Assembly (NCBI GenBank): GCA_013822735.1
Contig: PNKZ01000003.1
Location: 124,001 to 188,000, forward strand
Direction of reading: 5' to 3'
DNA: 64,000 nucleotides
Source of the DNA: Pirellula sp.
Lineage (GTDB): Bacteria; Planctomycetota; Planctomycetia; Pirellulales; PNKZ01
The first letter of the stretch is position 1; the number at the start of each line of letters is the position of its first letter. The notes beneath the pieces are model-generated. The model had not been told where the DNA came from, did no database searches, and worked only from the letters and a program-made list of their open reading frames with translations. Shown one piece after another: positions 2,996 through 50,190 of the stretch. The translations under genes and the position numbers were made by a program.

Positions 2996-3240
2996 GCGAT
3001 GCGGCTTCGTAAGGTTGGGCAACGGAAGGTCCAGGAGTTCCCCGGAATCGATCTCGGCAAATCTAACTTTTCCTGCGAGGCTCCGCTCGCTTTTTCGCGC
3101 GTATCGTGCGCGATTCACGCATTTTGCTGCGCCGAACCAACCATTTAGTGCGCCGTGCGCCCGGTGTGTTATCTCACCGAATTCGCCGCAATGCGCACGA
3201 TTGCGCACTTCCGGCAAGCCTTTCACACGCACCTCGCCCC

Positions 3241-3531
3241 GCAGGCGGCAAATGTCGCTTATCGCCCCCCCGGCAATCGACGTAAGTGCTCGAACCGTGC
3301 GTAGCGCCGTGCGCACTGCGCTCGGCGCGTTGTGCGCGGCCTTGTTGGTAAGCGCTCCGACGCGCACTCCGCGGGGCCACTTGTGCGCATTCCGCCGGTT
3401 TAGTGCGCGGGACTTACGTCGATTGTTAAGGTTCGGCATGGTTCGGAACTCACAGCACGATTGCGGACGGAGAATCACGCCGCATTATCCCAGATCGGCC
3501 GACCCGAGTTCCAGGCAGTTTTTGGCCGGCC
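3241..3531. repeat. GTGCGC-rich dispersed intergenic repeat, copy A
   Basis: This stretch aligns without any net gap to 38308-38598 (constant offset 35067). The core at 3275-3424 is exactly 150 bases and is bounded by a perfect 13-base inverted repeat, AATCGACGTAAGT (3275-3287) and ACTTACGTCGATT (3412-3424). By my count 124 of the 150 core positions match copy B (about 83%). The core carries repeated GTGCGC/GCGCAC words separated by variable spacers. A second conserved block at 3482-3531 starts with GCATTATCCC and ends GGCCGGCC (about 82% match). The wider gap between genes (2996-3693) has no convincing gene; more GTGCGC words extend left to about 3100. Confidence 0.8.
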
Positions 3532-38052: not shown

Positions 38053-38307
38053 CGGGGCGTCGGAAGGTGTGGGGGTGAGTCTTTCAGTATAACGATCGAG
38101 CGTGACGGGCCTAAACGAGATCCCTTCGCCGTCGCCTGCAAAAGGGTCCGACGTTCCATTTATTGCGCGCATGCCGCATTTCAGGCCCGTTTTCGTGCGC
38201 CGGAGTGCGTATTTGCTGCGCGCTGCGCCCGATGCCGCCTGCCGCAAAGTGCGCGGTCGCGGCGGTTTCGCGCACTCGGTGGAGCCATGCGTCGGCCGCA
38301 GCGCGCC

Positions 38308-38598
38308 GCCGGCGGCAAATGTTATTGATGCGCGAATCGGGAATCGACGTAAGTGGTCGAACCATACGACCGCTCGTGCGCACATCGTCCGGCACGTTGT
38401 GCGCTCCCTTGTTGGTAAGCGCTCCGACGCGCACTCGTAGGGTCCGGTGGTGCGCATTCCGGCGAGTTAGTGCGCGGGACTTACGTCGATTTTGGAGCGC
38501 CGACGACATGGAAGCTCGGGAACAGGGGATACGTTAAAGAACCACCCTGCATTATCCCCGAACCGCCGGCCCGATTTCCAGAGAAGTTTTGGCCGGCC
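38308..38598. repeat. GTGCGC-rich dispersed intergenic repeat, copy B
   Basis: This is the counterpart of 3241-3531, at a constant offset of 35067 bases. The 150-base core (38342-38491) has the same perfect 13-base terminal inverted repeats at 38342-38354 and 38479-38491, plus the same run of GTGCGC/GCGCAC words. The conserved GCATTATCCC block starts at 38549 and ends with GGCCGGCC at 38591-38598. The rest of the gap (38053-38668) has no gene; TGCGC words continue left to about 38165. As in copy A, a minus-strand gene for a secreted protein starts on its left. Confidence 0.8.
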
Positions 38599-38629: not shown

Positions 38630-38658
38630 TTAGCCCCCGGTCGGCGACCGGGGGCTAA
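38630..38658. repeat. TTAGCCCCCGG palindrome, single hairpin
   Basis: This is a perfect palindrome with 14-base arms around one central G: TTAGCCCCCGGTCG (38630-38643) and its complement (38645-38658). It lies 11 bases beyond the gltD stop (38669) and may end the lysR-gltBD transcript. The same left half recurs at 50139. Confidence 0.75.
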
Positions 38659-50138: not shown

Positions 50139-50190
50139 TTAGCCCCCGGTCGGCGACCGGGGGCGCCCGCCGTCGCCGACGGCGGGCTAA
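50139..50190. repeat. TTAGCCCCCGG palindrome, double hairpin
   Basis: Two adjacent palindromes (CCCCCGGTCGGCGACCGGGGG and a GCCCGCCGTC/GACGGCGGGC pair) are enclosed by TTAGC at the left and GCTAA at the right. The left hairpin is identical to the core at 38630-38658, but here a second unit has been inserted before the closing CTAA. It sits right after argG and probably ends its transcript. Confidence 0.75.

Follow-up and report, generated by a model that had tools for sequence, protein, structure and literature searches.

The window analyzed here, a stretch of 64,000 nucleotides (G000:C3:124001-188000) from a 6.88 Mb draft genome in 38 contigs (G000), contains two members of a family of about 90 dispersed elements, which falls into types I and II, the number of the latter being extrapolated. 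Orphan genes for homologs of the phage small terminase subunit (TerS) are linked to these arrays of sites, and gene and dyad have diverged together. In what we consider close to an even call, the elements can be interpreted as pac-like sites for an element-encoded TerS, served by a resident cluster resembling a gene transfer agent (GTA). Judged from sequence, DNA binding, recruitment of the large terminase subunit (TerL), packaging and transfer are predicted steps, and the elements may be either selfish or useful.

Architecture and constraint of the elements

The initial annotation had described a repeat that occurs twice at one constant offset with perfect inverted repeats. This was borne out by the gapless match of 3271-3424 with 38338-38491 (82% identity over 154 bases; offset 35067), by a second conserved block at the same offset of 35067 (3471-3531 and 38538-38598; 80% identity over 61 bases), and by 13-base arms that are exact in both copies. 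The similarity is far above chance: searches with the 291-base query recovered other G000 loci with E-values down to 4e-44, and the 27-base type I center pattern (CTTGTTNNNAAGCGNNNNGNCGCGCAC, one mismatch allowed) has 40 matches in G000 and none for the reversed control. Thus, the outcome under which the annotation would have been abandoned, namely no third copy and no homologs in relatives, did not arise, as there are many copies in G000 and homologs in related species. The conserved footprint of copy 1 exceeds the one originally delineated, starting near 3090 and ending in TTTTGGCC. The parts of the two copies are:

3090..3531, + strand: type I element copy 1, whole footprint (left edge approximate; from the multiple alignment of 40 G000 copies and the tail position)
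3090..3270, + strand: left part of the head of copy 1, with extra GTGCGC/TGCGCA sites at conserved positions (alignment conservation line)
3275..3287, + strand: left arm AATCGACGTAAGT of copy 1 (exact match)
3309..3339, + strand: first dyad of copy 1, GTGCGCAC ... GTGCGC half-sites
3341..3367, + strand: subfamily-specific center CTTGTTGGTAAGCGCTCCGACGCGCAC of copy 1 (center match G000:C3:127341-127367)
3360..3390, + strand: second dyad of copy 1, GCGCAC ... GTGCGCA half-sites, overlapping the end of the center
3412..3424, - strand: right arm ACTTACGTCGATT of copy 1 (exact match)
3471..3531, + strand: tail block of copy 1, with TTTTGGCC at 3520-3527
38157..38598, + strand: type I element copy 2, whole footprint (start set by the offset from copy 1)
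38342..38354, + strand: left arm AATCGACGTAAGT of copy 2 (exact match)
38408..38434, + strand: center of copy 2 (center match G000:C3:162408-162434)
38479..38491, - strand: right arm of copy 2 (exact match)
38538..38598, + strand: tail block of copy 2, with TTTTGGCC at 38587-38594

The window also holds two copies of a 26-base hairpin, GCCCCCGGTCGGCGACCGGGGGCTAA, in opposite orientation (38633-38658 and 50139-50164); similar hairpins adjoin other elements (L160, L161 and L166) and constitute another dispersed palindrome family.

The elements share a plan in which a head, made up of ACTTACGTCGA arms in fixed geometry, TGCGC-type dyads and a subfamily-specific center, is followed in most copies by a variable middle and a tail ending in TTTTGGCC. 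The type I head begins with a left array of TGCGC motifs and continues with the arm pair TCGACGTAAGT/ACTTACGTCGA, between which lie two GTGCGC-type dyads and an asymmetric center. G000 contains about 41 type I elements, comprising the 40 center matches and one copy split over the ends of contigs C32 and C37. We aligned the 40 loci and used the 36 with an inward-facing arm pair for counts on the arms; the other four are either cut by contig ends (L036 and L038) or have flipped arms (L039 and L040). The distance between arms, start to start, is 135 bp in 33 of these 36 copies and 133 bp in the remaining three, which upholds the earlier proposal of selection on spacing, and 65 of the 72 arms are exact. 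Of the 154 columns of the core, 73 reach a conservation of 90% or more, and the 48 variable ones have a mean pairwise identity of 0.408, as against 0.270 expected from the pooled composition. The most similar pair of type I copies is 90% identical, one of the two being partial, and the next best is 87% identical. Thus, across type I copies the sites are nearly invariant while the spacers have strongly diverged. Given that neutral decay of dead insertions would also destroy the arms, each copy appears either to be held by selection on its sites or to stem from lineages that were always under selection. The TTTTGGCC tail, identified by exact match at a variable distance from the head, is present in 26 of 39 type I and 12 of 15 type II copies in G000, and in 19 of 21 type I-center and 17 of 20 class III copies in the related genome G001 (see below), all of these being counts that lack a chance control; a 34-base tail pattern allowing three mismatches has 15 matches in G000 and none for the control.

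The arm word TCGACGTAAGT occurs 183 times in G000, as against two for the reversed word, which exceeds what type I explains. Twenty further arm-bearing places that we inspected resolved into 16 type II elements, three lone arms (L154, L162 and L168) and one type I center lodged inside type II arms (L164). In type II, a center CCCCTTGTGGGTTTTGGGGTTG is flanked by a pair of TGCGCAGATA-N-TATCTGCGCA dyads spaced about 50 bp from each other, and the arms face outward. Exact type II dyads number 82 in G000, with none in the control or in seven other genomes; extrapolating from 50 listed dyads, which by a hand count fall in 30 elements, we arrive at about 50 type II elements. In several of them (L152, L158, L165 and L167), one arm is directly flanked on its outer side by a conserved stretch, TTTCCGCCACGGAGTGGCGGACTACTTTG.

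Arms were also encountered in more distant genomes. The complete genome G012, from another family, has 21 occurrences of TCGACGTAAGT as against two of the reversed word, and at the seven places inspected (L172-L178) these mostly lie beside other palindromes (AATAGATTCCCA..TGGGAATCTATT or GCCCCC..GGGGGC); the arm motif hence looks common to arrays that seem otherwise unrelated. In G028, from a third family, intergenic repeats (L147 and L151) carry the same arms around a TTTGCAAATTTGCA-type palindrome. G057 has 53 copies of TCGACGTAAGT and none of the control; the ten places inspected there (L179-L188) are a near-identical repeat that resembles an insertion-sequence end and is unrelated to the arrays.

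Pattern scans of the whole collection yielded 22 contig stretches, of which 19 belong to G001, a genome of the same genus (sister MAG UWPOB_PLAC3), and one to G003. Pattern matches in Myxococcota and Nitrospinae and a single viral one were without other motifs and were taken as chance; plasmid and phage sequences gave no match to the element. G001 has 19 type I-center matches (none for the control) and 231 arm words (one reversed), together with further classes such as class III, which we define by 20 loci chosen among the first 100 listed G001 sites. Its elements have sharp ends (AAAATCGACG ... TTTTTGGCC), and one of its best long copy pairs is 90% alike over 451 bp. In G003 there are 24 arm words as against two reversed, and one type I-center match that is situated in an array, although the reversed control likewise yields one. 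In G002, a 99% complete genome of the same genus, the element patterns tested gave a single arm word and nothing else. We compared the flanks of 39 G000 copies with 20 contig stretches and three further loci. The only clear position shared by G000 and G001 in this comparison is that of L027 and L135; the latter has the orientation of L027 and starts no more than about 30 bp from the corresponding stop codon, but its site layout is of the G001 type. A second shared gene (L015/L132) was discounted because it lies on the other side of the element. L022 in G000 has convergent genes on its two sides, and the same pair is separated by about 17 bp in G001, an empty site.

Small-terminase genes and a phage-type cluster

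A type I copy on contig C8 (L005/L255) harbors, between its head and tail, an ORF of 206 residues (P0001), and a paralog with 42% identity occupies the same position in a type II element on C10; we thus found one gene-bearing copy per subfamily in G000. P0001 was identified as a terminase small subunit by its match to PHROG 4102 (E 4e-9) and matches the TerL-linked TerS of G000 with an E-value of 1e-13. In Pfam it has only sub-threshold matches, with the periplasmic-binding domain Peripla_BP_3 (E 0.011) ahead of Sf6_terminase (E 0.018). A profile of the family, including its TerL-linked members, matches chains of the phage Sf6 TerS (E 2e-4 to 3e-4). It is the N-terminal region of the homologs that corresponds to Sf6 TerS, and the C-terminal part of P0001 appears, on inspection, to be degenerate.

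Searches for homologs gave 24 matches, distributed over 14 of 20 genomes. Among the 19 loci that we inspected, nine have a TerL-type ATP-binding motif downstream, six are orphans beside arrays, and four have neither feature, although one of the four, L268, has three inverted repeats 357-500 bp downstream. Around the six orphan genes, no TerL motif was found in the 1.5 kb downstream or the 1.3 kb upstream. Besides G000 and G002, a TerS followed by a TerL motif is seen in G003, G005, G007, G009, G012, G016 and G018, and a viral contig has a TerS homolog directly before an ORF that by inspection resembles TerL; no match to the P0001-type gene was found in phage sequences. In a phylogenetic tree of 15 sequences over 150 columns, which used eight of the nine TerL-linked loci (L273 was left out) and none of the four loci with neither feature, the six orphans group apart from the TerL-linked and viral members (ultrafast bootstrap 91).

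In G001 the two orphan genes were the only TerS homologs recovered, so that a cluster of the kind described below is at most putative there. The two genes lie in gene-bearing copies that are 86.5% alike over 1015 bp and combine the TerS homolog with an array of GTGCGTACA/TGTACGCAC dyads; both arrays are devoid of ACTTACGTCGA arms and have TTGCAATT repeats instead. The two genes show a dN of 0.048 and a dS of 0.50, indicating purifying selection. The orphan genes of G001 (two), G003 and G006 (another genus) are followed by one or two strict dyads, those of G003 and G006 differing in sequence from the others. The sole orphan TerS locus of G003 supplied the dyad TGCGCATCTA-N-TAGATGCGCA, which we predicted to recur, and which is indeed present 24 times in G003 (once at the gene), a genome listed with 8% contamination, with none for the control and none in G000, G001, G002 or G006. 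All six of the 24 loci that we inspected have further half-sites in the same plan around the same center.

G000 additionally encodes, on contig C18, a cluster of TerS, TerL (phrog_38, E 1e-70), portal, head decoration and capsid genes. By inspection, the same cluster lies in G002 beside the same left-hand host genes, which we take to be moaB-, hemK-, prfA- and rpmE-like from their ORFs. Its loci are:

L281 (G000 C18), 3.8-19 kb: cluster
L282 (G000 C18), 1-1.7 kb: cluster
L283 (G002): cluster

The two species share 70% amino acid identity in TerL, 68% in the portal and 81% in the capsid protein, with no internal stops, and scanning 14 of the 21 ORFs of the C18 cluster with PHROGs or Pfam revealed no integrase. 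The cluster has the appearance of a gene transfer agent, or else of a domesticated prophage, and its type may be considered a candidate gene transfer agent of this order. As G002 has the cluster without the tested elements (beyond the one arm word) and without any orphan TerS that we could find, the cluster does not need the elements.

Genomic setting and alternative readings

The 54 copies with both neighbors called are all intergenic between predicted genes and occur in every orientation context: 20 tandem, 10 convergent and 8 divergent for type I (38 copies), and 11 tandem, 4 convergent and 1 divergent for type II (16 copies), with genes called by our own simple codon-score script rather than a standard gene finder. 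The 109 neighboring genes have no common function, their largest family having five members among the 25 of 115 Pfam families listed. These observations make it very unlikely that the elements are large operators, that is, transcription-control regions of a regulon. Such a role would suit the dyad symmetry of the operator-like half-sites and the location of some copies, including both in the window, upstream of genes whose products have, by inspection, exported-like N-termini. However, the share of copies between convergent genes (10 of 38 in type I, 4 of 16 in type II) and the lack of a shared neighbor function led us to reject the promoter or regulon reading, and with it the shared regulatory region suggested initially. 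The same presence in all gene contexts, along with constraint restricted to the sites, could also befit sites for chromosome organization, with the orphan protein acting like ParB or a nucleoid protein on evenly spaced arrays. In its favor, the gaps between the 56 elements of both types on contigs C1-C9 are more even than random (CV 0.68 vs 0.94; P 0.005), as are those of type II alone (P 0.0007), based on positions taken by hand from match lists, with one type II element (C7) placed from its arms alone. We nevertheless hold this role to be decidedly unlikely: type I alone is not evenly spaced on these contigs (P 0.44), element orientations are mixed along one contig, the congeneric G002 lacks the tested patterns apart from one arm word, and the protein groups with terminase subunits.

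Mobility, which the initial annotation had raised in the form of a MITE-like element, fares better in part. The elements might be miniature non-autonomous transposable elements whose copies are moved by a separate transposase or recombinase, with the TerS-like protein being a helix-turn-helix factor that binds their ends or regulates them. The many dispersed intergenic copies, the sharp ends and close similarity of copies in G001, the 86.5% likeness of its gene-bearing copies and the empty counterpart of L022 all agree with this. On the other side, inspection of the retrieved ends by eye revealed no target-site duplication, the ends of type I in G000 are less sharp, and no transposase occurs for the 109 neighboring genes among the 25 of 115 Pfam families listed. 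Further, the sites are conserved despite the decay of the spacers, and the gene-bearing copies found carry, instead of a transposase, a TerS homolog from a phage packaging family. Nor are there terminal inverted repeats at the very ends in G001, where AAAATCGACG and TTTTTGGCC are by eye not inverted copies, while the inverted repeats reported for type I are internal to its footprint. Hence, dispersal stands, and transposition as its cause appears to us rather unlikely. Highly improbable is the remaining suggestion, a structured RNA, which we considered together with single-stranded DNA hairpins. It derives some encouragement from class III of G001 (20 loci, 40 dyads), in which two variable core positions form Watson-Crick pairs in 33 dyads, with T.G at one of them in 7 and C.A in none, and in which arm permutations reach the observed pairing in just 4 of 2000 and 0 of 2000 trials. 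Moreover, consensus-fold pairs changed on both sides number 5 in G1_III (either strand), 5 in G0_I and 2 in G1_I (minus strand). However, class III is confounded by subfamilies that each have one common site variant, and these subfamilies would be a sufficient, if unproven, explanation of the pairing. Elsewhere permutations equal or exceed the observed pairing in 453 and 1081 of 2000 trials for type I, 2000 and 1780 of 2000 for type II, and 2000 of 2000 for the second dyad of G1_I; thus, there is no covariation in types I and II. In type II, A.C mismatches are as common as G.T (10 A.C and 5 G.T at arm position 11), and more than half of the type I copies (21 of 39) have T.T mismatches flanking the core. 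In a mutual information analysis of 340 columns and 36 copies (leaving out L036, L038, L039 and L040), nine of the top ten pairs are at most three columns apart, and distant lower-ranked pairs form no visible helix. Searched against Rfam, the window yields nothing that passes the gathering score, and a permissive threshold at six loci returned only microRNA-type and sRNA matches, all below that score. Finally, the dyads span 28-29 bp, which is the size of dif as given in PMC3025954; dif-like core sites for a tyrosine recombinase, still a conceivable alternative, were no longer favored after the discovery of the TerS gene inside the elements, between the head and the tail.

Proposed packaging sites and comparison with known systems

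Under the pac-like interpretation, the head would provide a fixed-geometry set of candidate binding sites for the TerS-like protein and act like a phage pac site. The few elements that carry the TerS gene between head and tail would be accompanied by gene-less satellites. The orphan TerS would bind the dyads and, once bound, recruit the large terminase of the resident GTA-like cluster, such that packaging of chromosomal DNA would start at the heads and the elements might spread or be kept through the packaging and passing on of adjacent DNA. This would account for constraint on the sites alone, for copies that lack the gene, for the fact that no transposase has so far come up, and for the joint divergence of gene and site. 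The combined spacing of types I and II, more even than random, speaks for it as well, and the spacing of type I alone against it. The interpretation leaves unaccounted for the constant ACTTACGTCGA arm, the tail, and the presence in G002 of the cluster without the elements; to our knowledge, neither tail nor constant arm has a known role in packaging. The arm may be read by a different protein, given that it also occurs beside other palindromes in another family. Also against the pac-like interpretation are the 4 of 19 homolog loci that have neither a TerL motif nor such an array. A bolder version, which we regard as possible but lean against, is that dozens of packaging-start sites, selfish or domesticated, are scattered at roughly even intervals over the chromosome, with an orphan TerS for each subfamily, and that they would turn the GTA-like particle into a sequence-directed, genome-wide transfer system in which the subfamilies compete for one large terminase and capsid by joint divergence of TerS and site. 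If true, this would demonstrate the packaging of chromosomal DNA from defined starts by phage-derived particles and would mean that gene transfer agents have parasites. In addition, these genomes supply several naturally occurring TerS/site pairs that differ in their sites and would lend themselves to work on DNA recognition by TerS. In the portions of the open-access literature available to us, no family of dispersed bacterial repeats came to light that is associated with a small terminase rather than with a transposase.

Like MITEs and REP/BIME repeats, the elements are short, dispersed, intergenic and mostly gene-less. REPs, as defined in PMC3733652, are palindromes of 20-40 bp tagged GTAG or CGTC, the GTAG type being linked to RAYT transposases, whereas the head of the present elements spans 150-340 bp with several dyads. 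Unlike REPs, it is thus a multi-site array, and the gene linked to it is that of a small terminase.

Phage-inducible chromosomal islands (PICIs) are phage satellites with a small terminase of their own. They offer the nearest analogy, that of a parasitic element redirecting the packaging of its helper with its own TerS; however, the present elements are about 0.4-1 kb in length, and those inspected carry at most one gene and no integrase. A phage of the pac type is usually described with one pac site. As in such phages (Sf6 and P22), the TerS gene here lies at or near an array of predicted binding sites and the family profile matches Sf6 TerS; unlike in them, there are dozens of chromosomal copies, most of them gene-less, and no TerL beside the gene. 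TerS recognizes pac sites and so sets the start of packaging, according to PMC7947584. The TerS of the gene transfer agent RcGTA, on the other hand, has no specific DNA-binding domain, and packaging is random with no discrete start sites known, as stated in PMC6854486 and PMC7947584. The resemblance to RcGTA lies in a compact TerS-TerL-portal-capsid cluster, with matching chromosomal neighbors in the two species G000 and G002, and concerns the genes. In contrast to RcGTA, the TerS homologs of these genomes retain the N-terminal region matching Sf6 TerS and accompany arrays; those for which we have counts (type I and type II of G000 and the G003 dyad) recur across their own genome.
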